A stretch of 64,000 bases of DNA. Source: Brachybacterium tyrofermentans. GTDB lineage: Bacteria > Actinomycetota > Actinomycetes > Actinomycetales > Dermabacteraceae. Position numbers and translations under genes: made by a program. Positions 53,614-58,783 of this stretch are shown piece after piece. Below the pieces are notes generated by a model, which was not told the DNA's origin, ran no database searches, and saw nothing but the letters and a program-made list of their open reading frames with translations. Location of the stretch: positions 62,001 through 126,000 of the forward strand of contig NZ_JABUXW010000011.1 of NCBI RefSeq assembly GCF_014897585.1, read 5' to 3'. The stretch's first letter is position 1, and the number at the start of each line of letters is the position of its first letter.

Positions 53614-54747
53614 GTGAACGACGACTACTACGAGCTCCTCGGCGTCTCCCGCGACGCCTCGACCGAGGAGATCAAGAAGGCGTACCGGAAGCTCGCCCGG
53701 ACCCTCCACCCGGACGTCAACCCCGACCCCGAGGCCTCCGAGCGCTTCAAGAAGGTCTCCCAGGCCTACGAGACCCTGTCCAATGCGGACAAGCGCCGCC
53801 AGTACGACATGGGCGGCGGCCCCGGCATGGGCGGTGGCGGCGGATTCGGCGGCTTCGGAGGCGGAGCCGGATTCGACGTCAACGACATCTTCGACATGTT
53901 CGCCGGGGCGACCGGCATGCGGGGTCGCAACCAGGGCCCCGTGCCCCGCCAGCGCCGTGGCGGAGATGTGCTGCGCCGGGTGAAGATCGACCTGCGCGAC
54001 GTGGTCTTCGGCACCGAGAAGGAGGTCTCCTTCCGCACCGCGGTGCTCTGCGAGCACTGCCACGGTGCCTGCGCCGAGCCCGGCACCAGCCCCACCCGAT
54101 GCACGGCCTGCAACGGCAGCGGCCACGTCCAGCGCGTCGCCCAGTCACTCCTGGGCCAGATGGTGACCATGGCGCCATGCCCCACCTGCGAGGGCCACGG
54201 CGACGTCATCGAGACCCCTTGCACCGGCTGCTCCGGCCACGGCCGCACACCGTCCGAACGCTCCGTCACCGTGCGCATCCCCTCCGGCGTCGAGAACGGC
54301 ACCCGGATCCAGCTGCGCGGCGAGGGCGAGACCGGTGAGGCCGGCGGCCCCTCCGGTGACCTCTTCGTGGAGCTCGCCGTCGCCGAGCACGAGATGTTCG
54401 TGCGTGACGGGGAGGACCTGGTGATCACCATGGCCGTGCCGATGACCTCGGCGGCGCTCGGCGCGACCATCCCGCTGGAGACCTTCGACGGCACCCAGGA
54501 GATCGATGTGAAGCCGGGCGCTCAGCCCGGGGACGAGATCACCCTCAAGGGCCTCGGCGTCACCCCGCTGCGCCGCGAGCGCCGCGGCGACGTGCGCGTC
54601 GTGCTCGATGTCGCCGTGCCCACGACGCTCAGCGACGAGGAGCGTGAGCTGCTCCAGCAGTTCGCGGATCTGCGAGGCGACGAGACCACACGGCGCAAGG
54701 GCCACGGTCCCTTCGCCAAGCTCCGCGACCGCCTGCGCGACCTCTGA
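53614..54747 (+). CDS. dnaJ: Chaperone DnaJ (second, hrcA-linked type)
   Basis: The 377-residue co-chaperone stimulates DnaK. The J domain (1-66) has HPD in [13 protein letters not shown] Gly/Phe region follows ([11 protein letters not shown]), then the zinc domain (about 140-220) with [16 protein letters not shown] and CTGCSGHG. The first repeat reads [12 protein letters not shown], so its second half is degenerate, but the cysteines remain. The C-terminal substrate-binding domains are complete. The start is GTG 53614. It lies 126 bases after hrcA, a typical actinobacterial hrcA-dnaJ2 operon. Confidence 0.94.
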
Positions 54748-54756
54748 GGCGCTGAT

Positions 54757-55545
54757 ATGCCCACCACCCCGCCCGGGTTCCTGATCCTCGACGCCGCTCT
54801 CGAGACGGCGCGCGAGGGCGACACGCTGACCCTGGGTGGGGACGAGGGCAAGCACGCCGCCAAGGTGGCCCGGATCGGGGTGGGGGAGCAGATCCTGCTC
54901 ACCGACGGCCCGGGTCGCCAGGTGCTCGCCGAGGTGACCGTGGCCCGCAAGGAGGCCCTCGACCTGCGTCTGCTCGAGGAGCCGTCGCCTGCTGTCCAGC
55001 GCCTGCCGAGGCTGGCGCTCGTGCAGGCGCTCGCGACGGGCGGTCGCGACGAGCAGGCCGTCGAATCCGCCACCGAGCTCGGGGTGGACCGGGTGGTGCC
55101 GTGGATCGCCCGGCGCTCCGTCTCGGTGTGGCGGGGCGACAAGCTCGTCAAGGGGCGTGCCCGCTGGACCGGCACGGTACGGGCCGCTGTGAAGCAGTGC
55201 CGTCGGCCCGGGATCCCCGCGGTCGACGCCCCTGTCACGACCCGCGAGCTCGTCGCCGATCTGCGTGAGCGCTCCGCCGCCGGCACCCTCGTGCTGGTCC
55301 TCCACGAGCAGGAGTCCGTGGGTCTCATGGAGCTCGCCGACGAGCTGTGGGCCGCGAGCGAGCACGGGGTCGAGGAGATCGTCGTGATCGTGGGCCCCGA
55401 AGGCGGCATCGCCCCCGAGGAGCTCGACTCGCTGCGCGAGGCCGGAGCCCGCTCGGTGCTGCTGGGCCCCGAGGTGCTGCGCTCCTCGACCGCAGGGCCC
55501 GCGGCGCTCGCGGTGCTCAGCGGGCTCCTCGGCCGCTGGGGCTGA
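54757..55545 (+). CDS. rsmE: 16S rRNA (uracil1498-N3)-methyltransferase RsmE
   Basis: This 262-residue SPOUT-fold methyltransferase modifies U1498 of 16S rRNA. An N-terminal PUA-like part is followed by the trefoil knot with VIVGPEGGIAPEEL (about 211-224) and LGPEVLRSSTAGPAAL. The ATG lies nine bases after the dnaJ stop, so it is the third gene of the hrcA operon. The order dnaJ-rsmE is common in Gram-positives. Confidence 0.93.
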   Translation: MPTTPPGFLILDAALETAREGDTLTLGGDEGKHAAKVARIGVGEQILLTDGPGRQVLAEVTVARKEALDLRLLEEPSPAVQRLPRLALVQALATGGRDEQAVESATELGVDRVVPWIARRSVSVWRGDKLVKGRARWTGTVRAAVKQCRRPGIPAVDAPVTTRELVADLRERSAAGTLVLVLHEQESVGLMELADELWAASEHGVEEIVVIVGPEGGIAPEELDSLREAGARSVLLGPEVLRSSTAGPAALAVLSGLLGRWG

Positions 55546-55631
55546 GCCTTTCTCGCCCTGCCCTGAGCTTCCATCGCCTAGCGCGCGTCGCCGCTCAGAT
55601 CGGAGCTCGGACGTCTCGCACGCCCCGAATC

Positions 55632-55865
55632 CCTCGATTCGTGTCGCTCGTGGGACGTTTCTGAGGAATCGGTGCTGAGGAATCGGTGCTGGGGAATGCG
55701 TGCTGTGAGGCGAGCAGGGGCTGTGGTGCCGTTTTCCCTCGATTCGTGTCGCTCGTGGGACGTTTCTGAGGAATCGGTGCTGGCGGCGTCTGGCTCGGGG
55801 TGAGCAGGGGCTGTGGTGCGGTTTTCCTTCGATTCGTGTCGCTCGTGGGATGTTTCTGAGGAATC
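55632..55865. repeat. 39-bp interspersed direct repeat, three copies
   Basis: Copies lie at 55632-55670, 55737-55775 and 55827-55865. The first two are identical and the third has two differences. Each begins near GATTCGTGTCGCTCG and ends TTTCTGAGGAATC, so GATTC and GAATC form short inverted ends. Copies 2 and 3 also share about 25 bases upstream, GAGCAGGGGCTGTGGTGC. Spacing is irregular (66 and 51 bases between copies). No supported gene lies in 55546-56006. Confidence 0.88.
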
Positions 55866-55930
55866 GGGACAGAGGTAGGGGCAGAGGTGGGGAGCGACGC
55901 CGGGACGTCGCGTCGTCGGTCCGCGTGAGG

Positions 55931-55948
55931 CCCGTGCCGCGGCACGGG
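55931..55948. promoter_or_regulatory. Perfect 18-bp palindrome
   Basis: CCCGTGCCGCGGCACGGG has no loop. It lies about 45 bases upstream of the TAGTGT box that serves the ABC-exporter leader ORF, so a dimeric regulator site is possible. A chance GC-rich palindrome is the alternative. Confidence 0.4.
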
Positions 55949-56006
55949 TCCCTCCGACCCCTGTTCGCCGTGTGAGGCAGGCCACGGTTGTGTAGTGTCA
56001 TCCGCT

Positions 56007-56072
56007 ATGCGCCGCGTCGACACCTGCCACGAGTCCCCGGCGACCGCTGATGGGTCCGGTGAGCGGCGATGA
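56007..56072 (+). CDS. Near-leaderless 21-residue upstream peptide
   Basis: This short ORF begins MRRVDTCHE and ends SGERR. TAGTGT (55993-55998) lies eight bases before its ATG, so any leader is one or two bases. Its TGA (56070-56072) overlaps the ATG (56069-56071) of the exporter ATPase as ATGA. This matches the arrangement at 1954-2025. I infer a leader peptide that couples translation to the transporter operon. Coding is unproven. Confidence 0.42.
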   Translation: MRRVDTCHESPATADGSGERR

Positions 56073-57109
56073 TCCTCGCCGAGAACCTGGTCAAGGAGTT
56101 CAGCAGGCCCCGTCGGGTCGAGGGCAGGATGTCCGGCCTGCGATCCTTCTTCAGCACACAGAAGATCACCACGCGAGCGGTCGACGACATCTCCCTGCGC
56201 ATCGACGACGGGGAGATCGTGGGCTATCTCGGCCCCAACGGCGCCGGGAAGTCCACCACCATCAAGATGCTCACCGGCATCCTCGTGCCCACGTCCGGAC
56301 GCATCGAGGTCGAGGGGATCGTGCCCTGGAAGGACCGGCGCACCAACGCCCGCACCATCGGTGCCGTGTTCGGCCAGCGCACCCAGCTGTGGACCGATCT
56401 TCCGCTGCGGGAGTCCTTCGACCTGATCGCGAAGCTCTACGGGCTCTCGCCCGAGGACTATCGCCGATCGCTCGACGTCTTCGTGGACCTGCTGGACATG
56501 GGCCCCTTCCTCGACACCGCCGTGCGGTCGCTGTCGCTCGGGCAGCGGATGCGCGGGGACATCGTGGCCGCGATGCTGTACCGGCCGCCCGTGCTCTACC
56601 TCGACGAGCCCACCGTCGGACTCGACGTGGTCGCCAAAGCGCGGATCCGGGACTTCATCGGGGAGCAGAACCGCTCCGAGGGGACGACGGTGCTGCTGAC
56701 CACGCACGACATCTCCGATATCGAGCAGCTCGCCCGGCGCGTGATCATCATCGACGAGGGCCGGATCCTCTACGACGGCGGGCTGGACAGCCTCCGGGCC
56801 CGCTACGCGCCCTTCCGAGAGATCCAGGTGAGCGCCCCCGAGATCCCGGAGTCCCTCGAGATCGAGGCGCTCACGCTGACCACCCTGGTCCCGGCCGGTG
56901 AGGAGATGCGCGCGACGTTCCGCTTCGATCCGGCGCAGATCCCGGCACCGGCGGCGATCGGCCGGCTCACCGCCGCGCTGGAGATCACTGATCTGTCCTC
57001 CCGCGAGCCGAGTGTCGAGGACGTGATCCGCCGGATCTACACCGACCGCGGGATCGAACCGCCTGTGGAACCGGCCGCCGCGGGACCGGGCGCCCCGGGA
57101 CAGCGGTGA
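56069..57109 (+). CDS. ABC-2 type exporter ATP-binding protein
   Basis: The 346-residue ATPase has Walker A GPNGAGKST (about 55-63), the signature LSLGQRMRG, Walker B VLYLDEPTVGLD and the H-loop TTHD. It resembles the NatA-like ATPases paired with DUF990 permeases, with a C-terminal extension of about 90 residues. The ATG overlaps the leader ORF and has only a weak ribosome site (GGTGAG), which fits translational coupling. The stop overlaps the first permease (GTGA). The substrate is unknown. Confidence 0.9.
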   Translation: MILAENLVKEFSRPRRVEGRMSGLRSFFSTQKITTRAVDDISLRIDDGEIVGYLGPNGAGKSTTIKMLTGILVPTSGRIEVEGIVPWKDRRTNARTIGAVFGQRTQLWTDLPLRESFDLIAKLYGLSPEDYRRSLDVFVDLLDMGPFLDTAVRSLSLGQRMRGDIVAAMLYRPPVLYLDEPTVGLDVVAKARIRDFIGEQNRSEGTTVLLTTHDISDIEQLARRVIIIDEGRILYDGGLDSLRARYAPFREIQVSAPEIPESLEIEALTLTTLVPAGEEMRATFRFDPAQIPAPAAIGRLTAALEITDLSSREPSVEDVIRRIYTDRGIEPPVEPAAAGPGAPGQR

Positions 57110-57933
57110 GCGCCCCCGCGCAGCGGCTGTCCGCTCCGCAGGTCCGCGTCGCGCTGCGGGCCTCGGTGGGCCATGCGGCGCGGTCCCAGTTCGCCTTCCG
57201 GGCCTCGACCTGGACCGGGATCGTGGCCTGCGTGCTCCAGGTGATCCTCGTGCACCTCGTGTGGACCGCCGTCTACGGCGGGCGTCCGGACGTCGCGGGC
57301 GTCGCCCAGGTCGACGCGGTCACCTATGCCGTGCTCGGTGTGCTCACCACCACGCTGTTCCAGCCGTTCATGTTCGACTCCCTGCTGGGGAGGCTGCGCA
57401 CCGGGGCCATCGCCTTCGACGTCATGCGGCCCGTCTCCGCCGTCCCCGTGGCGCTGGCCCGGCAGCTGGGCGGCACGATCGCGCAGCTGCCGGCAGCGGT
57501 CGCGGCCCTCGTCGTAGGCCTGGCGCTCGGCGCGATCGCCCTGCCCGGCTCCTGGGCCTCCGGCCTCGCGTGCCTGCTGTCGCTGGTCCTCGGATTCGCG
57601 ATCGCCCTGATCGTGAACTTCACCGTGGGGCTCGTGGGCTTCTGGACTCTGGAGACCGGCGGCGCCTTCCTCATCTACCGGATGCTCGCGCAGTTCTCCT
57701 CGGGCGCCCTGATCCCGCTGTGGTTCATGCCGGACTGGCTCACCGGCATCCTCACCCTGCTGCCGTTCTCCGCCCAGGTCTTCGTCCCGCTGTCGATCTA
57801 CGTGGACCGAGATCCCGGCTGGCACACCGTGCAGGCGATCGGGCTGCAGGCCCTGTGGATCGCGATCCTGCTCGCCCTGGCAGCCCTGGTGTGGCGGCGA
57901 GCGATCCGCCGGCTGGTGATCTTCGGTGGCTGA
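57106..57933 (+). CDS. ABC-2 family permease, DUF990-like, first subunit
   Basis: The 275-residue membrane protein has about six helices and belongs to the ABC-2 group with DUF990 (ABC2_membrane_6). Segments include AFDVMRPVSAVPVALARQLG and ALIPLWFMPDWLTGILTLLPF, the typical proline-rich late loop. GTG 57106 overlaps the ATPase stop, and its end overlaps the second permease by eight bases. It should form a heterodimer with that protein. Confidence 0.85.
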   Translation: MSAPAQRLSAPQVRVALRASVGHAARSQFAFRASTWTGIVACVLQVILVHLVWTAVYGGRPDVAGVAQVDAVTYAVLGVLTTTLFQPFMFDSLLGRLRTGAIAFDVMRPVSAVPVALARQLGGTIAQLPAAVAALVVGLALGAIALPGSWASGLACLLSLVLGFAIALIVNFTVGLVGFWTLETGGAFLIYRMLAQFSSGALIPLWFMPDWLTGILTLLPFSAQVFVPLSIYVDRDPGWHTVQAIGLQALWIAILLALAALVWRRAIRRLVIFGG

Positions 57934-58783
57934 GATCCCGATGACCCTGGACGACGGCCCCCGCCGGTCCCTCGCCCGTTCCGTCCCGACCTGGCGCACC
58001 TACGGCATCCTGCTGGGGGCGACCTGGCGCAGCATGCGCGTGCACCGCATGAACCTGATCCTCACCTTCCTGGGCAGCGCCGCGCTCCAGGGAACCCAGC
58101 TCGCCTTCATCGGTGTGCTGCTGGGAGCGTTCGGCACCATCGCCGGCTGGGACGTGGCCGAGGTGGCCTTCCTCTACGGCCTGCGGCTCACGGCGCACGG
58201 CGTATGCACCATCAACTTCGGGCAGCACCGTGCCAGCGCCCAGGTGGTGCGCAACGGCGACTGGGACCGCTATCTGCTGCGCCCGGCTCCGCCGCTGCTC
58301 CAGCTGCTCACCCGCTTCTTCAACCCCGGGACGATCGGGGACCTCGTGCTGGGCGTCTCGATCCTGTGCGTCGCAGCGACCGCGATCGATATCCGCTGGA
58401 CCCCGTGGATCGTGCTGTACGTGGCGCTCGCGGCGATCAGCGGCGGGCTGGTCGAGGCCGGCCTGCAGATCGGGATCTCCGGTCTCGACTTCACGATGGG
58501 GCCCACGACCCGCGTGAAGGACACCATCGACCGGGTGCTGACGGATTTCGGCGCGTATCCGATGACGATCTTCGGTACCGCGGGCGCCTGGCTGCTGACC
58601 TTCCTGCTGCCGCTCGCGTTCATGGCCTATCTCCCGGCCGCGCTCGTGCTCGATCATGCCGAGGAGCTGGTCGTGCCGCTGTGGCTGGCCCAGCTCTCGC
58701 CGGTCGTGGGCCCGTTGGTGCTCATCGGCGGGATCGCGGTCTTCCGGTATCTCTCGAGGTACTACGCGAGCCCCGGGCACTGA
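57926..58783 (+). CDS. ABC-2 family permease, DUF990-like, second subunit
   Basis: The 285-residue partner permease has about six membrane helices. Family segments are VVRNGDWDRYLLRPAPPLLQLL, matching the first subunit's DVMRPV region, and ISGLDFTMGPTTRVKDTIDR. GTG 57926 overlaps the preceding gene. Together with the ATPase it forms a complete exporter. It ends before an imperfect hairpin shared with the convergent reductase. Confidence 0.85.
   Translation: MAEIPMTLDDGPRRSLARSVPTWRTYGILLGATWRSMRVHRMNLILTFLGSAALQGTQLAFIGVLLGAFGTIAGWDVAEVAFLYGLRLTAHGVCTINFGQHRASAQVVRNGDWDRYLLRPAPPLLQLLTRFFNPGTIGDLVLGVSILCVAATAIDIRWTPWIVLYVALAAISGGLVEAGLQIGISGLDFTMGPTTRVKDTIDRVLTDFGAYPMTIFGTAGAWLLTFLLPLAFMAYLPAALVLDHAEELVVPLWLAQLSPVVGPLVLIGGIAVFRYLSRYYASPGH

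Follow-up and report, generated by a model that had tools for sequence, protein, structure and literature searches.

The window, a 64,000-nucleotide stretch of Brachybacterium tyrofermentans DNA, contains an ABC-2 exporter operon on its plus strand. (The genome of the window is called G000 here, and the other G labels are genomes of the same family.) The operon consists of one ATPase gene (56069 to 57109; PF00005) and two permease genes (57106 to 57933 and 57926 to 58783), both of which match PF06182 (ABC2_membrane_6), with all scores above gathering. The ATPase and the first permease genes overlap by 4 nt (GTGA), and the two permease genes overlap by 8 nt. Among the best 25 of 183 matched NCBIfam models, none reached its cutoff for the ATPase; the best match was drrA, with 203 bits against a cutoff of 312 bits. 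The upstream gene is rsmE (16S rRNA m3U1498 methyltransferase; 54757 to 55545, plus strand), which marks a syntenic block and is separated from the ATPase start by 523 bp. Between rsmE and the leader promoter, a 69-nt unit occurs three times at positions 55604 to 55867; measured against the reference copy, the other two have 74% and 94% identity. A 91-nt piece found matches in the window's own genome only among 38 genomes of the genus (E ≤ 0.001), and four weaker partial copies lie elsewhere in that genome, on contigs C89 (twice), C35, and C42.

Directly upstream of the ATPase gene is a mini-ORF of 21 codons (56007 to 56072), which, like the elements around it, lies on the plus strand. Its ATG (56007 to 56009) is located 8 nt (catccgct) past a -10 element, TAGTGT (55993 to 55998). 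The 21 sense codons encode MRRVDTCHESPATADGSGERR, and the TGA stop (56070 to 56072) overlaps the ATG of the ATPase gene (56069 to 56071) in an ATGA tetramer (56069 to 56072). This arrangement of box, spacer, start codon, ORF, and overlap had been pointed out in an earlier note on this DNA and was confirmed in the sequence. A weak -35-like hexamer, GTGTGA (55970 to 55975), is found 17 nt 5′ of the -10 element. A sequence resembling a Shine-Dalgarno (SD) element, GGTGAG (56058 to 56063), lies within the mini-ORF, 5 nt 5′ of the ATPase start. An alternative in-frame GTG start at 55995 would lengthen the mini-ORF to 25 codons and is located within the -10 element itself.

To judge how unusual these features are, we used a sample of 800,088 bases of G000 (17% of 4,609,434) and 800,000 bases of G024, in each of which a simple home-made gene finder called 697 genes. 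No other close gene junction came near the 4-nt RTGA overlap in frequency, with 95/697 genes in G000 and 94/697 in G024. Moreover, an ATPase that begins with Met-Ile (ATG ATC) supplies the overlap at the exporter for free. Because RTGA is the most frequent close junction and comes free with a Met-Ile start, the exact ATGA is weaker evidence than it appears. The basic end of the peptide, which the earlier note had counted as part of the design, is a by-product: the final codon is CGA because CG stands before ATGA, and CGA was the most frequent final codon of upstream genes at RTGA overlaps (26/95 and 23/94). Over all codons in the samples, CGA makes up about 0.4%.

An orthologue of the ATPase (E ≤ 1e-100) was found in 10 of the 38 Brachybacterium genomes, counting that of the window; the 47 genomes of the family that were searched gave none outside the genus. 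At the nine other orthologous loci, dnaJ, rsmE, the ATPase gene, and both permease genes stand in unchanged order. Nine of the 10 genomes, again counting the window's own, carry an ATG-started ORF that finishes at the ATPase ATGA. It has 21 codons in six genomes (G000, G021, G029, G009, G001, and G005), 26 codons in G024, and 42 codons in G013 and G011. Shorter in-frame starts (30 or 25 codons) also exist in G013 and G011, and these could be the real ones. At 21 to 42 codons in nine of the 10 orthologous loci, these ORFs lie within the 5 to 50 codons of a small-ORF class defined by a position in another frame than the gene and a TGA that overlaps its RTG. The exception is G010, where the ATPase gene starts with a GTG 54 nt past rsmE and 7 nt past a CAGGAT that could make it a leaderless start itself. 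G010 has no such leader, and the leader is therefore dispensable.

The box at the -10 place was compared across the leaders of the relatives. TANNNT is present in six of the nine leaders, and in all six the ATG follows exactly 8 nt after it. In G005, G013, and G011, the -10 place is occupied by AAGTCT or AAACCT (AANNNT), with TTGTGT 17 nt upstream, an assignment that is weaker since it was made with the expected spacing known. The -35 place of the eight other leaders holds GTGACC, GTGATC, GTGAGC, CTGACC, GCAACA, or TTGTGT (three leaders). The earlier note's proposal of a near-leaderless leader ORF joined by ATGA to an ABC-2 exporter gene is thus supported by its counterparts, with one predicted in nine of the 10 orthologous loci.

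The leader has otherwise diverged. Pairwise DNA identity among five leaders of equal length was 0.40 to 0.60, and the ATPase genes of the same five genomes agreed at 0.65 to 0.78 of their third codon positions. In an alignment of the six 62-nt leaders, 5 of the 57 interior columns do not vary. The ATG forms the sole run of three invariant columns between positions -120 and -1; one other adjacent invariant pair is the CG directly before the ATPase ATG. At the rate of invariance among interior columns, the chance that three given columns would all be invariant is about 0.0007 for the six genomes and 0.004 for the five of the main group, figures uncorrected for kinship, and the relatives are non-independent, with G013/G011 and G024/G009/G021 clustering together. 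Of the 18 alternative frames of the nine leaders, 10 contain a stop. In sequence of this composition, a random stretch of 20 codons is open with a probability of about 0.80, and an open frame alone is therefore weak evidence. That relatives share the ATG, its spacing of 8 nt past the -10 element, and the coupling frame argues that the mini-ORF at the exporter locus exceeds chance.

The peptide itself shows no comparable conservation. In the closest pair of genomes, G013 and G011, the leader differs by four nonsynonymous codon changes and one synonymous change, and the first 324 ATPase codons differ by 8 nonsynonymous and 40 synonymous changes. Identity between leaders had no codon-position pattern (means of about 0.52, 0.47, and 0.50 at positions 1, 2, and 3 in ten pairs), and no conserved codon run was found among the nine leader peptides. 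In eight of nine leaders, the codon score was highest in the coupling frame, although it stayed close to background or beneath it, a result that a translated but unconstrained stretch might give. A functional peptide was judged unlikely on the grounds of the 4:1 ratio in G013/G011 and the missing codon-position pattern, the codon score in eight of nine leaders being the contrary point. At this locus the linkage is conserved and the peptide is not, and from these comparisons selection seems to act on the position and frame of the mini-ORF rather than on its product.

Selection could also act on leader length, a reading that we hold to be unlikely. The distance from the leader AUG to the ATPase AUG is 62 nt, or exactly 21 codons, in six genomes, although identity between their leaders is otherwise no more than 40 to 60% (five compared), and the exceptions are in-frame extensions to 26 codons and to 42, which is twice 21. 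If length were selected, the path from a leaderless initiating ribosome to the reinitiation site would correspond to a fixed number of ribosome footprints. The same data would follow from a low indel rate combined with a need to keep the frame.

Initiation close to the 5′ end of a transcript is plausible in this genus. In the samples described above, TANNNT stood 6 nt before 44 called starts in G000 and 45 in G024; at 7 nt, the counts were 10 and 12, respectively. Together these spacings account for 54/697 and 57/697 starts, about 8% of genes, compared with means of 0.9 (G000) and 1.15 (G024) called starts per spacing at control spacings of 10 to 35. SD pairing at the 6- and 7-nt starts was weak (medians of -3.1 and -3.8 kcal/mol, compared with -6.9 and -7.6 kcal/mol for other genes), as expected for leaderless genes. 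The distance of 8 nt at the mini-ORF differs from the 6 to 7 nt that is usual in the two sampled genomes. A spacing of 8 nt was found before 3 + 6 = 9 called starts, versus 2.0 expected (Poisson P of 0.0003, in a test picked after the locus had been seen). It is a minor but real class beside the 6- and 7-nt spacings, and "near-leaderless" is a fair word for it. As 8 nt is minor beside 6 and 7 nt, the exporter transcript may carry zero to three extra bases, starting on the mini-ORF ATG itself or as much as about three bases earlier. TAGTGT scored 9.2, at the 75th percentile of the 129 leaderless-type gene starts with 6-nt spacing in the two genomes. In that set of 129 starts, C is enriched at -1 and A at +4. 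A stringent sigma-70 scan found no promoter at the leader, a result that says little for GC-rich actinobacteria.

The earlier note had paired the exporter leader with a second mini-ORF, at 1954 to 2025, and suggested a recurrent regulatory architecture in this genome. The second site is as described, with TACGGT at 1942, a 6-nt spacer, an ATG, 23 codons, and an ATGA. The broader claim did not hold up. Coupled mini-ORFs of 8 to 60 codons with TANNNT at 6 to 8 nt numbered 2 in the G000 sample versus 1.0 expected and 1 in the G024 sample versus 0.8 expected, or 3 versus 1.9 when pooled, with the expectation taken from spacings 10 to 35. Looser matching of gene starts gave 5 versus 5.1 expected over the 1.6 Mb of the two genomes. 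A frequency no higher than in controls had been named beforehand as the outcome that would refute recurrence, and on this small sample the claim fails by that standard, with spacings 10 to 35 as the controls. The only ATG-started ORFs among the five coupled cases are the two within the window, and the other three are GTG started. Spacings 3 to 5 and 9, which belonged to neither the test nor the control set, hold seven and four coupled cases, respectively, under the looser matching. Spacings 6 to 8 thus have a large excess of ordinary gene starts and no excess of coupled mini-ORFs. The count has low power, given 17% of the window's own genome, the home-made gene finder, and strict TANNNT. Within that power no over-representation in the genome was seen, which is a property of a class and not of a single locus. 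A modest set of coupled mini-ORFs elsewhere in the genome may exist and is compatible with the 17% sample. The negative result warns against making a genome-wide rule from two neighboring examples.

The second mini-ORF is, by comparison with four relatives, partly conserved in its own right. G002 has the same TACGGT, 6-nt spacer, and ATG, with an 18-codon ORF that finishes in ATGA. G029 and G014 instead carry a longer open frame, possibly for a small membrane protein, and in G026 neither the start nor the stop of the mini-ORF is in place.

The start regions of the exporter mini-ORF and the ATPase differ in their potential for SD pairing. The mini-ORF start has little (-1.9 kcal/mol). For the ATPase, the 18 nt that include GGTGAG gave an anti-SD duplex of -11.3 kcal/mol, at the 10th (strong) percentile of other called genes. 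The SD of the ATPase is weak in G001 (-4.7 kcal/mol) and in G013 and G011 (-4.9 kcal/mol), and the dependence of the ATPase on coupling therefore probably differs between species.

We consider it probable that the mini-ORF acts in cis as a ribosome loader for the exporter, by near-leaderless initiation followed by termination-reinitiation. A sigma-A-type promoter would start the exporter mRNA at the mini-ORF ATG or within about three bases of it, and a ribosome would start at the 56007 ATG without an SD sequence. We infer SD-free initiation from the fixed distance between the -10 element and the ATG and from the abundance of leaderless-type starts in the genus. The ribosome would then translate 21 arbitrary codons, terminate at the UGA of AUGA, and restart one base back on the ATPase AUG, aided by the SD-like GGTGAG, after which translation would run on through the overlapping permease genes. 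Judging from the comparison of relatives, selection would keep the start codon near the 5′ end, the open frame, and the overlap, and would let the peptide drift. Because the ATPase owns a strong SD, ribosome loading is probably a boost in this species and not an absolute requirement.

The most serious alternative, which we regard as rather unlikely, is incidental pervasive translation: the transcript would begin near an AUG by chance, the exporter would use its own SD, and the overlap would come free from Met-Ile. Several of the findings given above agree with this explanation, namely, the strong ATPase SD in this species, the lack of enrichment of the coupled class in the sample, the probability of about 0.80 that 20 codons are open, and the commonness of RTGA junctions. 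In addition, most newly found ORFs of Mycobacterium tuberculosis are described as being without purifying selection (PMC9094748). Chance placement does not readily account for an ATG that is invariant in six leaders keeping just 5 of 57 interior columns or for the same distance between the -10 element and the ATG in the six TANNNT leaders. We also count against it that the difference between the 26- and 21-codon forms is a multiple of three.

It is very unlikely that the leader encodes an attenuator or stalling peptide responsive to an amino acid or to the exporter's substrate. The location before an ABC-2 exporter and the single Cys codon would suit such a role, but the peptide is not conserved and bears no sign of purifying selection. 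No terminator-like site was found in 55540 to 56110, Rfam gave 0 matches in 54500 to 57200 at the gathering threshold, and the leader was no more structured than shuffled sequences (fold z of +0.91); on these three results an attenuator, a riboswitch, and a structured leader were rejected. Canestrari et al., in 2020, reportedly described cysteine-rich leaderless attenuator uORFs of mycobacteria in which the Cys codons are kept. The exporter leader resembles these in being a short ORF, predicted here to be near-leaderless, at the head of an operon, but it does not keep Cys codons.

Less probable still is that the mini-ORF replaces a lost upstream cistron, so that an ATPase start that evolved within a 4-nt overlapping pair now needs any upstream translation. 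In the two Streptomyces homologues tested, the ATPase GTGA does overlap an upstream gene, for a class III aminotransferase, and at 1954 to 2025 two of the four relatives carry a longer open frame where the mini-ORF would be. For the Streptomyces proteins, identity is only about 42%, only two loci were tested, and the comparison does not give the direction of change. The least probable explanation, a functional microprotein acting in trans, agrees with the presence of the ORF in nine genomes and with the best codon score in eight of nine leaders but not with the variation in amino acid sequence and length, the four nonsynonymous changes to one synonymous change in the closest pair, or codon scores near or below background.

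The ribosome-loading arrangement has counterparts in mycobacteria. Shell et al. 2015 (PMC4633059) describe leaderless small ORFs that are coupled by RTGA and over-represented, report that RTG at +1 is sufficient for initiation in mycobacteria, and give an example in which such ORFs can keep linkage and not sequence. The exporter locus shares the RTG at or near the 5′ end (predicted here), the size of 5 to 50 codons, the TGA/RTG tetramer overlap, and a conserved architecture with a diverged peptide; it differs in that the Brachybacterium locus is known from sequence comparison only and in that the sample showed no enrichment of its class. In the uPPE2-PPE2 pair of M. tuberculosis (PMC11260477), a uORF with an AUGA overlap drives the next gene by termination-reinitiation. 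The exporter is likewise preceded by a short uORF in a different frame, with an AUGA overlap and, as proposed here, termination-reinitiation. The uPPE2 uORF is described there as having its own SD and B12 riboswitch control, whereas the uORF start here pairs at -1.9 kcal/mol and matches no Rfam family; conversely, PPE2 is described as lacking an SD, and the exporter ATPase has one. A 4-nt overlap is listed in a review (PMC12548453) among the most efficient coupling junctions of neighboring genes. The exporter has this overlap too, but its upstream partner is a nonconserved mini-ORF beside a promoter and not a gene.

On comparative grounds, the exporter locus fits the mycobacterial kind of leaderless coupled small ORF. 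A leaderless, stop-start-coupled small ORF, experimentally described in mycobacteria, is thereby extended to Brachybacterium by comparative evidence, and the literature searched on leaderless uORFs and Brachybacterium yielded no earlier report of the locus. With nine genomes that have the leader and one that does not, the genus offers a natural test bed for the contribution of a mini-ORF to a gene with or without a good SD.

Homologues outside the orthologous group were also considered. Of 39 homologous loci, four lie on contigs already represented by G029, G001, G011, and G005, and each of these was counted a single time; the G001 contig is locus L002, from B. alimentarium. A further 17 loci (L004, L005, and L007 to L021) were inspected in their upstream regions, and L022 to L039 were left out. 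In Streptosporangium (L005), no coupled ORF with a -10-like box in front of it was seen within 300 bp. A tree of concatenated proteins placed the operon of Nakamurella aerolata (L004) among the Brachybacterium orthologues, a position suggestive of transfer or a mixed assembly, and the Nakamurella ATPase is 87% identical to that of the window in the best segment. At L004, a GTG-started ORF of about 60 codons begins 6 nt past CACGGT and finishes in GTGA, with other GTG starts in the same frame. This locus is suggestive and was left out of the nine leader-bearing loci. Its coupled ORF holds an in-frame 18-nt tandem repeat, visible by eye.
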